Source: Candidatus Gastranaerophilales bacterium
GTDB taxonomy: Bacteria > Cyanobacteriota > Vampirovibrionia > Gastranaerophilales > Gastranaerophilaceae
NCBI GenBank assembly: GCA_944323725.1
Contig: CALUTP010000024.1
Coordinates: 1 to 60,993, forward strand
DNA length: 60,993 nucleotides
Direction: 5' to 3'
This document shows, piece after piece, positions 1-36,483 of the stretch. The notes below the pieces were generated by a model. That model saw nothing but the letters and a program-made list of their open reading frames with translations. It ran no database searches and was not told the origin of the DNA. Made by a program: the position numbers and the translations under genes. Within the stretch, counting starts at the first letter, position 1, and every line of letters begins with the position of its first letter.

Positions 1-156
1 ATAGGCATTAGTTAATATTGAATATGTCTGCTTAAATCTTGTTAACCAAACCCTTTCATTAAACTTTGCCATTAATGCAGGCATTGTCATTGCTGCTACT
101 ATGCCTATTATTCCTAATGTTATCAACACTTCTGCTAACGTGAATGCCTTTTTCAT
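1..156 (-). CDS. Prepilin-like protein A, N-terminal part (runs off the window)
   Basis: The 52 visible residues start MKKAFTLAEVLITLGIIG, the class III/type IV prepilin signature: a very short leader, cleavage expected before Phe5, Glu at mature position 5 and a hydrophobic helix that anchors the subunit in the inner membrane before assembly. The residue before the cut is Ala rather than the usual Gly. The start at 156 has the Shine-Dalgarno AGGAAGG about ten bases upstream. The C-terminal domain lies beyond base 1, so the substrate or role (pilus, pseudopilus or DNA-uptake fibre) cannot be told. It is a tandem paralogue of the gene at 452-1255 and sits behind the same leader. Confident as family, unknown as function. 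Confidence 0.85.
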   Translation of the reverse strand, partial: MKKAFTLAEVLITLGIIGIVAAMTMPALMAKFNERVWLTRFKQTYSILTNAY

Positions 157-208: not shown

Positions 209-239
209 AAAAAATCAGCCACTACTAATTATCGGCTGA
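209..239 (-). terminator. Terminator-like hairpin (putative attenuator A) between leader and pilin A
   Basis: Read on the minus strand: TCAGCC, a 13-base loop, GGCTGA, then six T. The stem is 6 bp and perfect, and the T run is immediate, as in a rho-independent terminator, though the stem is short. It lies between the leader promoter and the pilin start, so it must be passed for pilin transcription. The TGA of the leader frame is the last three bases of the 3' arm. Confidence 0.6.
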
Positions 240-322
240 CTAAGTTTATGGATATTCGCAAATTTATTGCTTAAACTAGGTGCCCCCCCCCCCGAAATTA
301 TTGCTATTACTATATTTTGCAT
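215..322 (-). CDS. Leader peptide A with poly-G tract (35 aa)
   Basis: A 35-codon frame starting MQNIVIAIISGGG, with the ideal Shine-Dalgarno AAAGGAGG six bases before the ATG and a consensus promoter just upstream, so translation is very likely. The G11 tract encodes part of codon 10, Gly11 to Gly13 and the first base of codon 14. In this frame the ribosome reads both arms of the following hairpin and stops at TGA exactly at its end. With 10 or 12 G the frame would close within a few codons after the tract. The start resembles the N-terminus of the prepilin at 16892 (MQNAVISVIRGGG). No function is known to me; I infer a regulatory leader or a remnant of a fused prepilin leader. Confidence 0.6.
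   Translation of the reverse strand: MQNIVIAIISGGGAPSLSNKFANIHKLSQPIISSG
283..293 (-). repeat. Poly-G tract, 11 bases, in leader A
   Basis: Eleven consecutive C on the plus strand (G on the coding strand). In such AT-rich DNA this is far outside chance and is a classic substrate for slipped-strand mispairing. Its length sets the frame of the leader peptide. Confidence 0.95.
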
Positions 323-348: not shown

Positions 349-377
349 ATTATAAGCGATTTCTCTTCTTTTTTCAA
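349..377 (-). promoter_or_regulatory. Promoter of leader A / pilin A
   Basis: Minus-strand TTGAAA, 17-base spacer, TATAAT: near-perfect sigma-70-type promoter. Transcription would start near 342, about 20 bases before the leader ATG. The same pair of boxes with the same spacing precedes leader B. Confidence 0.8.
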
Positions 378-451: not shown

Positions 452-1255
452 TTATTTATATAAAGTTTTTATCATCTCCTCAGTTAGCTTTCCACCCTTT
501 TCTGCTGTCATACAATCACCTGGTCCTACATTTAGCTGTGTTATAGATGATTGACCTGTTCGAGCATTGTTTCTAATTGAAAGAGCAAATAAGTCATATC
601 CCCATTTATTTGGACCTTTCTTGCCATTTATATCAAAGGCAAAACTGTAATTTCTGTCATTTGAATAAGACAAAAGTAAAATACCTCCATCTGCTAGGAC
701 ATAACTTGAGGCTACATTATGAACCTGATCCTTTGTCCACATTACACAACTAGCTATCATTTGTTCGCCATAATCTTCCATATAATTATCATCCCCAGGT
801 TTAGCTACCTGACTTTCTTGGGCTACTTCTTCTCTGCCCTTATATTTTGGAATACAGCCATTTGCTAATGAGTTATTTTTACATGTCTTCATTATTTTTA
901 AATTCTTTCTTATATATGACCAAAATTCTTCACAATCATCACGCACTCCATTCTGATCATATGGGATTGGGGAACCATCTACTTGCGTAACTGAGGTACA
1001 CACTCCTAAGGAATTGTAATTTGTACATACTTGTGGAACTAAATTATATGTCCTACGATAACAAGCTGGCATACTTCCATATTCTGACTGTGCTTTTATG
1101 ACAGCTTGAGACAAAACTGAATATGCTTTTTTAAACTGAACTTTTAGTACGTATTCCTCGTATTTCTTTGTTAATGTCGGCAACGTCAAAGCTGCAACTA
1201 CACCTATTATTCCTAATGTTATCAATACTTCTGCTAACGTGAATGCCTTTTTCAT
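452..1255 (-). CDS. Prepilin-like protein B (267 aa)
   Basis: Starts MKKAFTLAEVLITLGIIGVV, the type IV prepilin N-terminus with cleavage expected after Ala4, followed by a hydrophobic helix to about residue 25 and an exported Cys-containing globular domain. I chose the start at 1255 because AGGAAGG lies about ten bases upstream; a TTG 35 codons further up has no ribosome-binding site and lies in the leader. The C-terminal GWxxxxDYP motif found in the other prepilins of this window is absent, so the head domain belongs to another subtype. It sits behind leader B, whose G12 tract puts the leader in the early-stop frame. Likely a minor pilin or pseudopilin; exact role unknown. Confidence 0.88.
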   Translation of the reverse strand: MKKAFTLAEVLITLGIIGVVAALTLPTLTKKYEEYVLKVQFKKAYSVLSQAVIKAQSEYGSMPACYRRTYNLVPQVCTNYNSLGVCTSVTQVDGSPIPYDQNGVRDDCEEFWSYIRKNLKIMKTCKNNSLANGCIPKYKGREEVAQESQVAKPGDDNYMEDYGEQMIASCVMWTKDQVHNVASSYVLADGGILLLSYSNDRNYSFAFDINGKKGPNKWGYDLFALSIRNNARTGQSSITQLNVGPGDCMTAEKGGKLTEEMIKTLYK

Positions 1256-1307: not shown

Positions 1308-1338
1308 AAAAAATCAGCCACTATCATACGCTGGCTGA
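1308..1338 (-). terminator. Terminator-like hairpin (putative attenuator B) between leader and pilin B
   Basis: Minus-strand TCAGCC ... GGCTGA followed by six T, with one further A-T pair possible inside the stem. The stem bases are identical to copy A although most loop bases differ, which suggests that the pairing is kept by selection. With the G12 tract present here, the leader ribosome would stop before reaching the hairpin. Confidence 0.6.
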
Positions 1339-1374
1339 CTACTTTTAAGGGTATTCGCAAATTTATTGCTTAAA

Positions 1375-1422
1375 CTAGGTGCCCCCCCCCCCCGAAATCA
1401 TTGCTATTACTATATTTTCCAT
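1375..1422 (-). CDS. Leader peptide B with poly-G tract, early-stop frame (15 aa)
   Basis: Starts MENIVIAMISGGG with Shine-Dalgarno AGGAG seven bases before the ATG. With 12 G the frame reads Gly-Gly-Gly-Gly-Thr and ends at TAG directly after the tract. With 11 G it would run 35 codons and end at the TGA in the hairpin, exactly as leader A does. So the two copies appear to be captured in different phases. This depends on the correctness of the homopolymer length in the assembly. Confidence 0.55.
   Translation of the reverse strand: MENIVIAMISGGGGT
1382..1393 (-). repeat. Poly-G tract, 12 bases, in leader B
   Basis: Twelve consecutive C on the plus strand. This is the only position where the duplicated leader blocks differ in length. 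Confidence 0.95.
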
Positions 1423-1458: not shown

Positions 1459-1487
1459 ATTATAAACTATTTGTTTATGATTTTCAA
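1459..1487 (-). promoter_or_regulatory. Promoter of leader B / pilin B
   Basis: Minus-strand TTGAAA, 17 bases, TATAAT, the same boxes and spacing as for leader A although the spacer sequence differs. Transcription would start near 1452, about 30 bases before the leader ATG. Confidence 0.8.
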
Positions 1488-9835: not shown

Positions 9836-10602
9836 ATGAATAAAATTGTAAAATTGAGAAAGAAAAGACGTTTTGGCAGACTAGGCTTCACATTAACAGA
9901 GACTTTGATAACACTAGGTATTATAGGAGTTGTTGCCGCAATGACCTTACCTGCACTCATACAAAACTATAGAAACCACGTAGTTGAAACACGACTTAAA
10001 AAAATTTACTCAGGAATAAATCAAGCAATATTACTTGCTGAAAAAGATTATGGAGATAGAAAATATTGGTTTACTGATTTCAATAATGTAGAATTGGATG
10101 ATGAAGGTAAACCGATAAATGGTTAAGCTGAAGTTGAAGCTTGGTGGAATAAATACATAGCTATAAATCTAAAAACTACAGCAATAAAATATGCTCAAAA
10201 AGGACTACCTTATTTTTACTTTCCAGATGGAAGCACATTAAAAATAAGATTTACTGATGCTATCAGAGAATCTTATTTTATCCTGGTAATCCCAAAAAAT
10301 GTATAAAAAAATACGGAGATGAAACTAATGGTTTTGCTAAATGTGCATTCACATTTATGTACATGCCAGGAGGAGATAATATAAAGTCAAACGCAACTCC
10401 AAACAGTCCTGACTGGAGATACCATGTAAATAAAGGTGTAGAACCCTATAAATTTAAATGGGATGGAACCAAAGAAGGCTTGTATAACGGGAGTTATAAT
10501 GGATGCAACACTACTCCAAATAAATTTTACTAATGCACAGCCCTTATCCAGTATAACGGCTGGAAAATTCCTGATGATTACCCATTCAAAGTAAGCTACT
10601 AA
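9836..10602 (+). pseudogene. Broken prepilin-like gene
   Basis: Begins MNKIVKLRKKRRFGRLG followed by FTLTETLITLG, a prepilin N-terminus with a 17-residue basic leader, and a good Shine-Dalgarno (GAAGGGG). Three lesions break it: TAA at 10124-10126 after Ile-Asn-Gly, a frameshift in the run TTTTAT near 10276 (reading continues as PGNPKKC in frame +1), and TAA at 10531-10533 just before CTALIQ. The end NGWKIPDDYPF matches the C-terminus of the prepilins at 16011 and 35803. A secreted truncated product of 96 residues is possible from the first part. Loss of function is the simplest reading; stop-codon recoding is unlikely given the additional frameshift. Confidence 0.85.
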
Positions 10603-14971: not shown

Positions 14972-15960
14972 CTTCCGCAAGTACCACCCCAACGAGCAAT
15001 AATATTCCCTTTAATATCCTTAATATTAGTATAATGAGGGACTTCATCCACACCCTCTAGAATTGTAATAACTTCACAATTATTAGAGCACCCATTACAA
15101 TCACAGGTAATCGAATGGAAATGCATATCACCAACCTGCCAGCCTTTAAATTTAGTTTCAGCTTCAGTGTACTGATGATTTTCCATAGCAAGAAGCGCTG
15201 CTCCGATTGCCCCCATTGTCTGATGATTTTCAGGAACGACTATTTTATGTCCTAAAGCCTCTTCAAAAGCCTTAACCATTCCTGAGTTAGTAGCAACACC
15301 GCCTTGAAAAGTAATAATTGGAAGAAGCTCTTTACCTAAAGCCAAATTAGAAAGGTAATTTCTAACAAGAGCCTGACAAAGCCCATATAACAAATCTTCT
15401 ACAGGATACCCCAGCTGCTGTTTATGAATCAAATCACTTTCAGCAAACACACCGCATCTTCCAGCGATACGAGCCGGATTGGTTGATTTTAAAGCAGTTT
15501 CACCAAAAATTTCGATAGGAACATTTAATCTGTTTGCCTGTTGATCCAAGAAACTTCCTGTACCGGCTGCACATACAGTATTCATTGCAAAATCTGTCAC
15601 AATACCGTCACGAAGAATAATGATTTTGCTATCCTGACCGCCTATCTCAAGAATAGTCTGTACTCCCGGAACGTTAATACTTGCGGCAACGGCATGGGCA
15701 GTAATTTCATTTTTTATAATATCAGCACCAACCAGAGCTCCGGCAAGGTTACGTCCTGAGCCGGTTGTTCCAACACCCATTACATTATAATCAGTCAGCT
15801 TCTTTTTATATAATTCCTTAAGTCCGTTTTGAACGGCAAGAACAGGTTTACCTGCGGTTCTGAGCATGTAACTGTCTACATACTTGCCGTTTTCATCAAC
15901 GAGTGCAAGCTTTGTCGTAACAGAACCAACGTCTATCCCTAAATATACTGTTAAACTCAT
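14956..15960 (-). CDS. Acyl-CoA dehydratase activase-like ATPase (BadF/HgdC family)
   Basis: 334 residues of the ASKHA fold. N-terminal LGIDVGSVTTKLALV is the phosphate-binding loop, EIGGQDSK the second, and NTVCAAGTGSFLDQQA holds the Cys that ligates the dimer-bridging 4Fe-4S cluster; GRCGVFAESDLIH has the second conserved Cys. Such proteins drive ATP-dependent electron transfer to 2-hydroxyacyl-CoA dehydratases or benzoyl-CoA reductases. The C-terminus adds CDCNGCSNNC and GGTCGRW, possibly a further metal site. No dehydratase subunit lies near, so the partner is elsewhere or different. Shine-Dalgarno AGAGG before the ATG. Confidence 0.88.
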   Translation of the reverse strand: MSLTVYLGIDVGSVTTKLALVDENGKYVDSYMLRTAGKPVLAVQNGLKELYKKKLTDYNVMGVGTTGSGRNLAGALVGADIIKNEITAHAVAASINVPGVQTILEIGGQDSKIIILRDGIVTDFAMNTVCAAGTGSFLDQQANRLNVPIEIFGETALKSTNPARIAGRCGVFAESDLIHKQQLGYPVEDLLYGLCQALVRNYLSNLALGKELLPIITFQGGVATNSGMVKAFEEALGHKIVVPENHQTMGAIGAALLAMENHQYTEAETKFKGWQVGDMHFHSITCDCNGCSNNCEVITILEGVDEVPHYTNIKDIKGNIIARWGGTCGRWDIS

Positions 15961-16010
15961 ACATTTTCCTCTATTTCAAAATTCTATATTATAAGTTTAA
16001 CATAAACAAA

Positions 16011-16892
16011 CTACCATGGATAATCATCTTTTATTTGCCAGCCGTCTTCAACAATTTTACATGTACAATCAAATCCAAATTTTCTGCAATCTTCCCCCGA
16101 ACCGCAATTATGAGGTAAATAAGTGCAATGACCTTTCCCGTCACAACTCTGGTTTCCAAGTTTGTACGGCCAAATCTTGCTTTGGCAATATTCGCCGCCT
16201 ATCTTAAACATAAATACGTCTTTTCCTGCAACGTTAGGTTTTTGGGGACCATTAATATCTACTAAAAATTCCATCTCCCTTCGTCCTGTTAATTGGGATT
16301 GATGCCATCCCCATCCATAAACAAACCCATCAGTTGTAAGAAAGTATATATCCATATAGTTGTAACCACTAAAAACATCGCCATTTATTGTTTTAAAAGG
16401 CGCTAGGTAACCTCCGCTTTTTGAAAGAAACATTTCATAACCAATTGAAGACATAAATGAGAAAGGGGAACTATAGCCTTTCTTAGAGTTATAAGTTTCA
16501 GAATCATTCAAAACATTGAAATAAGGTTTTATAAATTTATTAACTGCATCTAAACCCTTATTACGGTAGTCAGAAGTACCCCAGCTCCAATATGCAAGGC
16601 AACCGTTATCCGCCTCTGCTTTTTGCAGAAAGCTGCCAATTACAGAATTTGCCTTCTTTAATTTGCTTATTGTTTCAATCTTTTGATATTTACCGACTAT
16701 AGCAGGAAGAGTTAGAGCAGCGACAACACCAATAATACCCAGAGTAATTAATACTTCGGCAAGGGTAAAGCCTGCTTTAATAGTTCTTCTCCTGGCAGCG
16801 CGAATTGGTTCATTACCTGCGCCAATACCTCCTATAGAGCTTAAATTATTCTGCCCCCCCCCCCGAATTACTGATATTACTGCGTTTTGCAT
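16011..16892 (-). CDS. Prepilin-like protein C with in-frame poly-G tract in its leader
   Basis: 293 residues. Starts MQNAVISVIRGGGQNNLSS and continues with a basic stretch (RAARRR) to Lys-Ala-Gly, after which FTLAEVLITLGIIG begins, so the prepilin leader is 41 residues, far longer than the 4-5 residues of its neighbours. The ATG at 16892 has a perfect AAAGGAGG seven bases upstream, and no other in-frame ATG lies before the cleavage site, so expression must pass the G11 tract at codons 10-13. Gain or loss of one G abolishes the pilin: a phase-variation locus, currently on. Four or more Cys and the C-terminal DGWQIKDDYPW follow the family pattern. Likely minor pilin; role unknown. Confidence 0.88.
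   Translation of the reverse strand: MQNAVISVIRGGGQNNLSSIGGIGAGNEPIRAARRRTIKAGFTLAEVLITLGIIGVVAALTLPAIVGKYQKIETISKLKKANSVIGSFLQKAEADNGCLAYWSWGTSDYRNKGLDAVNKFIKPYFNVLNDSETYNSKKGYSSPFSFMSSIGYEMFLSKSGGYLAPFKTINGDVFSGYNYMDIYFLTTDGFVYGWGWHQSQLTGRREMEFLVDINGPQKPNVAGKDVFMFKIGGEYCQSKIWPYKLGNQSCDGKGHCTYLPHNCGSGEDCRKFGFDCTCKIVEDGWQIKDDYPW
16854..16864 (-). repeat. Poly-G tract, 11 bases, inside prepilin C
   Basis: Eleven G on the coding strand, in frame as the last two bases of codon 10 (CGG) and three GGG codons. Candidate contingency tract. Confidence 0.95.
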
Positions 16893-16996
16893 ACTTTCGC
16901 CTCCTTTTTCTAGCTTTACTTTTAGTTCTTTCTTTATTTATCTAAGGAAATATATTTATGTTTGAAACAATAACGAGAGCGAATCTGAGAAAATAA

Positions 16997-17025
16997 TAGA
17001 TCTGCTCTATAGACTGTCCAATGCT
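16997..17025 (-). promoter_or_regulatory. Possible promoter of prepilin C
   Basis: Minus-strand TTGGAC, 17 bases, TATTAT in the 200-base gap upstream of 16892, leaving an mRNA leader of roughly 100 bases. Weaker than the promoters of leaders A and B. Confidence 0.45.
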
Positions 17026-17056
17026 CTCTTTTTATTATAACATATATTGTATAAAT

Positions 17057-17086
17057 AAAAACCCCTTCTTGCTTTAAGGGGTTTTT
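17057..17086 (-). terminator. Rho-independent terminator after the 74-aa gene
   Basis: Stem of 11 bp (AAAAACCCCTT with AAGGGGTTTTT), loop of eight bases, T runs on both strands. It ends the transcript of 17092-17316; the prepilin C promoter lies downstream of it. Confidence 0.85.
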
Positions 17087-17091
17087 ATTTA

Positions 17092-17316
17092 TTATGTCCT
17101 TAAGTTATCAAAGAAACCAAAATCACGGCCACCACCATCTGGTTTTAGATTTTTGTTAAACTGAGTATTTGTAAACAAACTCATTTTATTATCAATATCA
17201 CCAAATGTATCTTTGCCAAACAAAGAATTTGCAACTTTTTGACCACCCTCAGTTTTTGCTGCCTGAGGCTGTTTACCTTTATGGAAATCTCCATTAAATC
17301 CATCAATTTTTGTCAT
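17092..17316 (-). CDS. Small hypothetical protein (74 aa)
   Basis: Lys, Gly, Asn and Phe-rich 74-residue protein starting MTKIDGFNGDFHKGKQPQ, with no membrane segment and little predicted structure. Shine-Dalgarno AAGAGGAG seven bases before the ATG and a strong terminator behind make it a real, independent gene. It recalls the 73-residue protein at 29505 in size and composition. No family recognised. Confidence 0.65.
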   Translation of the reverse strand: MTKIDGFNGDFHKGKQPQAAKTEGGQKVANSLFGKDTFGDIDNKMSLFTNTQFNKNLKPDGGGRDFGFFDNLRT

Positions 17317-34884: not shown

Positions 34885-35806
34885 TTATTTTGATAAAATT
34901 GCAATTACAACTGGTGATCCAAACGGTATTGGAGCTGAAATTACGATTAAAGCTCTAAATAATTTAGATTTACCAGATAGTAAAATTGTTTTAGTTTCAA
35001 ATAAAAGAATATTAAATTTTTATGGGAATTTAAAACGGGATTATGAAATTATAGAAGTGCCTTTTGAATGTGAAATTACACCAGGAAAAGTTACATCTGA
35101 GGGTGGAGAATTCTCTTTTTTATCATTAAAAAAAGTCTGCGAGATTAAACCTAAAGCTATTGTAACAGCACCGGTAGCTAAAAGTGCACTTCATTTAGCT
35201 GGTCACCTTTATAATGGACAAACAGAAGTGCTTCAAAATTTTTTATCTCATAATGGACAACTCGCTGAAATGCTTTTTGTTGCAAGGGATTTCAGGGTTT
35301 TGCTCCTCACAAGACATTGTGCTTTAAAGGATATTAATTTAACCAAAAACATAGTTATAGAAAAAATATTAAATTTAAAAAAATTTTTCAATAAGCATTT
35401 TGGAATTACTTCTCCAAATTTTGCTCTTTGCGGATTTAATCCGCATTCAGGTGAGGATGGAATTTTAGGATGCGAAGAAATCGAAATATTAAATCCTGCA
35501 ATAAAAGATTTACGTAGGTTAGGAGTAAATATAACTAATCCGCTTCCTGCAGATACTTTATTTGTAAATGCGGGAAAGGCTTTTTATCAAAATAAAAACT
35601 GTCCTTATGATTGTTATATTGCAAACTACCACGATCAAGGATTAATCCCTATTAAAACCATAGCAGGCGATGAGACTGTTAATATGACTATTGGTCTTGA
35701 TATTATAAGAACCTCTCCAGGTCATGGCACGGCTTTTGATATTGCCGGTAAGAATATTGCTTCTGAAGCTGGGATGATTTCAGCAATCAAGGCTGCTCTT
35801 AATTAG
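34877..35806 (+). CDS. pdxA2: 4-phospho-D-threonate/erythronate 3-dehydrogenase (PdxA2-like)
   Basis: 309 residues of the PdxA family. TTGDPNGIGAEI at the N-terminus and TAPVAKSAL are family motifs; metal ligands include His in LLTRHCALKD and NYHDQGLIPIK; C-terminal RTSPGHGTAFDIAG is highly conserved. PdxA proper makes pyridoxine precursor from 4-phosphohydroxy-L-threonine, but adjacency to the sugar-acid kinase favours PdxA2. ATG at 34877 (overlap of eight bases with the kinase) fits the family start better than TTG at 34868. Its stop overlaps that of the converging prepilin gene. Confidence 0.83.
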   Translation: MNSYFDKIAITTGDPNGIGAEITIKALNNLDLPDSKIVLVSNKRILNFYGNLKRDYEIIEVPFECEITPGKVTSEGGEFSFLSLKKVCEIKPKAIVTAPVAKSALHLAGHLYNGQTEVLQNFLSHNGQLAEMLFVARDFRVLLLTRHCALKDINLTKNIVIEKILNLKKFFNKHFGITSPNFALCGFNPHSGEDGILGCEEIEILNPAIKDLRRLGVNITNPLPADTLFVNAGKAFYQNKNCPYDCYIANYHDQGLIPIKTIAGDETVNMTIGLDIIRTSPGHGTAFDIAGKNIASEAGMISAIKAALN

Positions 35807-36483
35807 AATTTATACGGATAGTCCTGAGGAAGTTTCCAGCCATTTGCCTGTATAAGCCTTGTACAATATGCACCTCCATTAATCGCCTCCTTGTTATAGC
35901 ATCCATATCCTGAATTGAATTTTAATTCTTGTTCATCATTTTTGTTGCATGCATAAGTATCAAATCTCGTTAAACATTTATCTAAGTTTGATAGGTTTGC
36001 GGCAAATCCAAATAAAAAAGAGTCTTTTCCTTTAATGGCACTTTCATTCATAAAGGTTTTATAATTTGTGTATAAAGATACATGTAGATAATTCCCTGAA
36101 AATCCAGCCATATTAGCTACGCTTCCATCTCCTAGAATGAATGTTATTCCTCCATCTATGAGGTCATTATCTTTTAATACTTTTCTATCTATAATTCTGA
36201 TATTGTTAAGATAAGGAGCCCAATATTTATTAAACCACGATAATAATATTTCGTTCGTGCTTTCACCACCTTGAGCTACCCAATCCCAGGAATCAACCTC
36301 TCCATTGTCAGCAATAGAACGTAAATGTGCCTGTTGCATTGTAGAATAGAATTTTTTCAGTTTACTCATAGTTACCTGTTCTCGATATTTGCTCATAATA
36401 GTTGGTAAGGTCAGAGCTGCTATAATCCCGATGATTCCAAGTGTAATTAAAACTTCTGCTAATGTAAATCCATATATCTTCAT
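35803..36483 (-). CDS. Prepilin-like protein D
   Basis: 226 residues, starts MKIYG then FTLAEVLITLGIIGIIAAL: a five-residue leader and a class III/type IV pilin helix. The head domain ends with YCTRLIQANGWKLPQDYPYKF-like sequence (Cys near the end, then GWKLPQDYP), shared with the pilin at 16011 and the pseudogene at 9836. Shine-Dalgarno GAAAGG six bases before ATG and a perfect consensus promoter at 36557. Unlike A, B and C it has no poly-G leader and so should be expressed constantly. Likely a minor pilin. Confidence 0.88.
   Translation of the reverse strand: MKIYGFTLAEVLITLGIIGIIAALTLPTIMSKYREQVTMSKLKKFYSTMQQAHLRSIADNGEVDSWDWVAQGGESTNEILLSWFNKYWAPYLNNIRIIDRKVLKDNDLIDGGITFILGDGSVANMAGFSGNYLHVSLYTNYKTFMNESAIKGKDSFLFGFAANLSNLDKCLTRFDTYACNKNDEQELKFNSGYGCYNKEAINGGAYCTRLIQANGWKLPQDYPYKF

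Follow-up and report, generated by a model that had tools for sequence, protein, structure and literature searches.

We found that gene C, which encodes a 293-amino-acid prepilin in a Candidatus Gastranaerophilales bacterium, probably (we put this at about 85%) belongs to a large set of pilin genes that are poly-G contingency (phase-variable) loci. The genome appears to carry a large repertoire of such genes, for which OFF would be the default state. Gene C was identified from its open reading frame and profile matches at 16011..16892 on the minus strand of the window (the whole stretch of 60,993 nucleotides that was analyzed). It has a leader fused to the pilin and is predicted to be ON with its tract of 11 Gs.

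The fused leader of gene C

The 293-residue open reading frame of C opens with MQNAVISVIRGGG; the prepilin motif, GFTLAEVLITL, follows at residue 41. Its N-terminus reads MQNAVISVIRGGGQNNLSSIGGIGAGNEPIRAARRRTIKAG up to the predicted cleavage point and FTLAEVLITL beyond it. The 41-residue leader (16770..16892, minus strand) ends at this predicted prepilin-peptidase cleavage point, between G and F, and is preceded by a Shine-Dalgarno sequence, AGGAGG (16900..16905, minus strand). Residues 39-62 match Pfam N_methyl PF07963 (23.0 bits) and NCBIfam TIGR02532 (23.8 bits), both above the curated cut-offs, and the motif G/FxxxE with a hydrophobic helix is that of a class III signal peptide. Gene C is like the type IV pilin/pseudopilin family (PF07963, TIGR02532) in its GFTLAEV cleavage-methylation motif. 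It differs from that family in its long pre-motif leader, which holds the putative switch, and in matching no equivalog: none of the full-length or equivalog pilin models (GspG, ComGC, PilA) reached its cut-off. There was also no close orthologue of C. The best identity outside its own gene was 42-44%, and a search of contigs with C found one distant relative, in a Candidatus Gastranaerophilales genome. A search of the whole window against Rfam gave no match.

The tract is a run of exactly eleven Gs (16854..16864, minus strand) that makes up three glycine codons and the final two bases of the arginine codon before them. The frame is open into the pilin with 8, 11 or 14 Gs, one of the three length classes. 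When the tract was changed in silico to G9, G10, G12 or G13, the predicted peptides had 14, 16, 15 and 17 residues, respectively. Translation of the G12 (or G9) form would end at a TAA 5 nt past the tract (16846..16848), and that of the G10 (or G13) form at a TAA 10 nt past it (16841..16843; both on the minus strand). From the tract to the motif, the pilin frame has ATA and ATT as its only codons of this kind and lacks ATG, GTG and TTG. Tracts of this kind are not due to chance, as the window has three runs of at least 11 Gs and shuffled sequences predict 0.05 nine-G matches.

These results bear out several claims of an earlier note on this DNA: that there is an in-frame G11 inside the 41-residue leader of prepilin C, that no other start codon could bypass it, and that one base gained or lost would abolish the pilin. 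The note had also described the start of the C leader as homologous to two other leaders in the window, A and B (see below), and the DNA before the tract is indeed 79% identical to that of A and 72% identical to that of B.

A promoter-like pair, TGGACA-16-TATTAT, is present upstream of C (16993..17020, minus strand); it is a consensus match only, and shuffled sequences gave more such matches than the region itself. The possibility that the tract sets promoter spacing was rejected because the tract follows the start codon. No terminator-like site was found in positions 15900-17200 around C. C is a direct fusion, and so is not an attenuator of the type described next.

Two leader architectures in a large pilin family

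Runs of nine or more Gs occur 41 times in the genome (1.91 Mb in 48 contigs), and we read each of them individually. At least 36 of the 41 are in pilin-type leaders. Thirty-two of these were classified automatically, three (L045, L054 and L069) are leaders at contig ends, and one (L046) is a leader with a longer N-terminus. The tract is at a nearly fixed position, mostly 29-34 nt past a start codon that has a Shine-Dalgarno sequence. With 82 matches to N_methyl, the N-terminal motif of pilins, in the genome, close to half of its pilins would bear a switch. Pilins without a tract have an ordinary short leader (e.g., MKIYGFTLAEV at 35803-36483).

The other runs fall outside this set. L038 is probably L037 re-read at an overlapping contig end. 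The remaining four, L036 (G11, 1090-amino-acid frame), L043 (G13, 485-amino-acid membrane-type frame), L041 (G13) and L035 (G12), are in or near non-pilin genes, so the candidate phase-variable set extends beyond pilins. The window also contains a pilin-type gene (RLGFTLTETLITLG) without a G tract at 9836-10600 on the plus strand. It looks like a decaying pilin, because pilin-like coding sequence continues past an in-frame TAA at 10124-10126.

The leaders are of two architectures, with 23 fused loci and 9 classified terminator loci in the genome. The earlier note had recognized both architectures but understated the scale, which is tens of loci and not three. It had also called the leader of C unusual, which is incorrect, because the fused form outnumbers the terminator form. 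At fused loci, including C, one length class joins the leader with the pilin. Across the 11 genomes compared below, there is no ATG, GTG or TTG between the tract and the pilin at 97 of 141 fused loci.

Loci A and B, both on the minus strand, have the second architecture. Leader A (215..322; 35 amino acids) has a tract of 11 Gs (283..293) and is in the ON frame, ending at a TGA within the 3' arm of a hairpin. This terminator-like hairpin and its T run (209..240; -10.7 kcal/mol for 208-244, z -3.1) lie between the leader and pilin A (1..156), which has its own start, MKKAFTLAEV, and continues beyond the edge of the window. Leader B (1375..1422; 15 amino acids) has a tract of 12 Gs (1382..1393) and is OFF, with a stop 4 nt past the tract. 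It is separated by a second terminator-like hairpin and T run (1308..1339; -12.6 kcal/mol for 1307-1343, z -3.8) from pilin B (452..1255), which has its own Shine-Dalgarno sequence and the start MKKAFTLAEV. The promoter-like sequence TTGAAA-17-TATAAT (11/12) is present 5' of leader A (349..377) and of leader B (1459..1487). Both hairpins were found by folding; a consensus terminator scan missed them, probably because their loops are above its limit. In both A and B, the ON-length stop is at +65, within the hairpin (+42..+68), and the OFF-length stops are well before it, at +4 and +9.

Terminator loci in general have a hairpin and then Ts between the leader and a pilin with its own Shine-Dalgarno sequence and ATG. 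This layout recurs with other hairpins at L048, L061, L068 and approximately 40 loci of genomes G003 and G012. In the CTACC group of leaders, a stretch of 58 nt contains stops in none of 32 leaders in the ON frame, versus 29/32 and 32/32 in the other two frames. The ON stop at terminator loci is inside the hairpin, past it, or, mostly by no more than 10 nt, before it. The T run is weak behind many of the CTACC-type hairpins, and some ON leaders stop 10 nt 5' of the hairpin. Codon positions in the ON stretch of these leaders have no signature of peptide conservation, and therefore the act of translation seems to be what matters.

The Pil1 switch of Streptococcus gallolyticus, which was shown experimentally, combines GCAGA repeats in a leader peptide with a terminator (PMC3894217). 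As would be the case for A and B, repeat length in the leader open reading frame sets where translation stops (PMC3894217), and long leaders enter a premature terminator hairpin and switch on the pilus locus. A and B have the same order of a repeat-bearing leader open reading frame, a terminator hairpin and a separately started gene. Pil1 differs in that its repeat unit is a pentanucleotide, found at a single locus, and in that the pilus operon is from a Gram-positive bacterium. In contrast, the family of A, B and C has a G tract, type IV-like pilins and many loci, and its leader is also found directly fused to the pilin, as in C.

Most known poly-G contingency loci come from pathogens and commensals among the proteobacteria and campylobacteria. 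Those of Campylobacter, Helicobacter and Neisseria affect, for the most part, a variety of genes for surface glycans, adhesins and modification. The poly-G loci of these three genera [PhasomeIt, PMC6321876; Neisseria phasome, PMC5953494; H. canadensis, PMC2823697] are like the fused loci, including C, in having in-frame G tracts that are expected to give ON/OFF translation by slippage. The family of C differs in that one N-terminal module recurs in dozens of pilin paralogues, and in that its host belongs to a gut lineage of non-photosynthetic cyanobacteria.

Related genomes have from 0 to approximately 116 G runs in the same family (mostly at least 10) and from 0 to 6 in other families of the order. 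In the sampled relatives, many of the runs are again in pilin leaders. Genome G021, from another genus of the family, has longer tracts (L242-L261), mostly G13, and a variant pilin motif, FTMAEILLSLTI; nearly all of its tracts are also one G above the ON length. Similar G runs, flanked by GGCAAGCAATTCAC or GACAAGCAATTCAC, precede non-pilin sequence in two species (L102 of G011 and L236 of G012), and those in G011 form a close tandem pair. In genome G009, L092 (2096 to the end) is a 49-G run at the edge of a stretch and is probably a sequencing artefact.

Tract length and reading frame

We found that tract lengths avoid the ON class. Among 192 classified leaders from 11 genomes (one genome per species), 17 were ON, 109 were one G too long and 66 were one G too short (modulo 3). 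One third, or 64, would be expected to be ON (P = 1.8e-15, assuming independence, although the loci are related). The depletion was found in both architectures, with 14/141 fused loci (P = 1.4e-10) and 3/51 terminator loci (P = 4e-6) in the ON class, the loci again being treated as independent. These P values are optimistic because the loci share ancestry. When one locus was kept per post-tract sequence and genome, 13/153 were ON. Shuffling the lengths among fused loci within genomes gave a mean of 31.6 ON loci, compared to the 14 observed.

G11 is the commonest length. It was present at only 4/37 of the loci where it would be ON, versus 103/155 of those where it would be OFF (P = 4e-10), indicating that length tracks the predicted state of the gene. 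The avoidance of ON lengths suggests that the start codon of the leader drives the pilin, since otherwise no link between length and state would be expected. Our reading of this avoidance is that selection holds the majority of switchable pilins OFF in most cells.

The OFF lengths are also unevenly distributed. In the genome that contains C, the 25 OFF loci comprise 23 that exceed the ON length by one G (ON+1), with 10, 11, 12 or 13 Gs depending on the frame, and 2 that fall short of it by one (ON-1; P = 2e-5). This skew counts against plain symmetric slippage, which predicts none. Deletion bias of long G runs has been reported for G10-G11 tracts of C. jejuni (as cited in PMC4085013). Such a bias would gather alleles at the shorter of the two OFF lengths between successive ON lengths, and it is a possible source of the skew. 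Two simple rules were considered and rejected. A universal default of one G above ON fails because ON-1 is dominant in genome G018 and, among the CTACC leaders, in those of G003 and G012; only the avoidance of ON is family-wide. Most genomes agree with a default set by whichever frame has its stop closest, but the five loci of the C genome at which the two rules differ are all ON+1. Loss of mismatch repair was likewise rejected as a source of instability. MutS was found in 23 of the 25 genomes searched, including that of C, so the tracts in the C genome are not destabilized through its loss. Of the 63 alignments of 350 nt or more that pair homologous tracts from different species, 43 retained G11. 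This is about the chance level for so sharply peaked a length distribution, and so fast slippage is not demonstrated by retention.

The main rival explanation is programmed recoding, in which the tract would be a stable slippery site and a frameshift by the ribosome or RNA polymerase would let OFF alleles make a set, low level of pilin; C would need no shift. The ON+1 loci of the C genome look as though they called for a single, constant correction, conservation of G11 is widespread, and the pilin frames behind OFF tracts are intact. However, the offset is not constant across the family, which weakens this explanation. In addition to the groups in which ON-1 predominates, the ratio of ON-1 to ON+1 among OFF loci is 42:30, 8:64 and 16:15 in the three frame classes. 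Recoding sites need shorter runs than the 9-14 Gs found here, and near-identical paralogues differ by one or two Gs (below). We consider recoding unlikely.

The tract might instead encode a poly-glycine sensor in an ordinary glycine or peptide attenuator, its length being incidental. The terminator loci do have a leader peptide, a hairpin and a T run. Such an attenuator would have no terminator to control at the fused loci, which are the majority, and it leaves the tie between tract length and frame and the lack of a codon-position signature in the ON stretch without explanation; we regard it as very improbable. Still less probable, in our estimation, is that the tracts are assembly or sequencing artefacts or the decaying starts of pseudogenes. 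Homopolymers are error-prone and several of the tracts are at contig ends. Nevertheless, tracts were found with unique flanks in 32 of 39 related genomes, including assemblies of approximately 10 contigs, and the pilin frames downstream are intact. Furthermore, lengths correlate with reading frame, which is not expected of a sequencing artefact because an assembler is blind to reading frames.

Shared modules and proposed switching

Comparisons of paralogues argue for contingency loci. Near-identical copies within one genome differ in tract length: L057 and L069 have G11 and G12, and the two members of the L067 tandem pair (1613-1624 and 2484-2493) have G12 and G10. The L067 pair has identical leader and post-tract sequences and unrelated bodies, and is apparently a clean, recent case of a change in tract length. 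Together with the deficit of ON lengths, these differences support the proposal in the earlier note that C is a contingency gene.

The similarity is confined to the 5' part of the genes. The leader, the post-tract segment and 75 nt at the start of the pilin are, respectively, 100, 100 and 95% identical in the L067 pair, 93, 93 and 87% in L051 A/B, and 83, 83 and 92% in L047 and L057. In module-sharing pairs, the pilin body and the far upstream DNA are at the background levels of 53% and 49%, respectively. L056 and L058 have nearly all of their post-tract sequence in common but differ in their leaders, which would fit an exchange at the tract or close to it; this case is tentative because both are at contig ends. 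The earlier note had suggested that one module moves or spreads between pilin genes. An N-terminal module common to divergent bodies (83-100% versus 53%) agrees with this, but does not separate gene conversion from duplication with divergence. The comparisons support spread of the leader module between pilin genes, either through recombination or through duplication and fast divergence of the body.

Based on these results, we suggest the following mechanism. From what is established for such tracts, replication slippage just past the start codon would add or remove one G. At fused loci, one length class modulo 3 (8, 11 or 14 Gs for C) would take ribosomes from the leader ATG into the pilin frame. 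In the other two classes, they would meet a stop no farther than approximately 5-10 nt from the tract, and the pilin would not be made. At terminator loci such as A and B, the leader would act as an attenuator. With an ON length, ribosomes would advance into the hairpin as far as its 3' arm and melt the terminator, so that transcription would reach the separately started pilin; with OFF lengths, ribosomes would stop beside the tract and the terminator would form. Ribosome-dependent antitermination is an established process and would operate here. With most loci OFF in any genome, few switchable pilins would be ON at once. Genes for a PilB-type ATPase and a prepilin peptidase are present in the genome, and the pilins would presumably be cleaved by the peptidase and used by type IV pilus machinery. 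The benefit would come through surface variation.

A broader model is a combinatorial 'pilin lottery', with independent poly-G switches on dozens of pilins whose default is one slip from ON. It would be combined with a 5' module that is mobile or recombines, comprising the leader, the tract, the post-tract sequence and codons 1-25. Exchangeable at or near the tract, this module would spread the two interchangeable switch designs, a translational fusion and a translation-controlled terminator, to new bodies. We hold this model tentatively, at somewhat below even odds.

In a literature search, we found no paper linking phase variation with Gastranaerophilales; the sole paper that mentions both Melainabacteria and phase variation concerns flagellins. 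Because the assembled allele is OFF at most loci, automated annotation will miss the start of the pilin or put it in the wrong place. The tens of loci per genome are natural replicates with which selection on ON and OFF states could be measured from assemblies alone. In this gut lineage, a non-photosynthetic relative of cyanobacteria that has hardly been cultivated, the proposed G-tract mechanism would cover close to half of the large pilin family, with two switch designs built on one leader. Chance slippage during DNA replication could switch many surface proteins of these bacteria on and off, and it becomes possible to test how they vary their surface in the gut.
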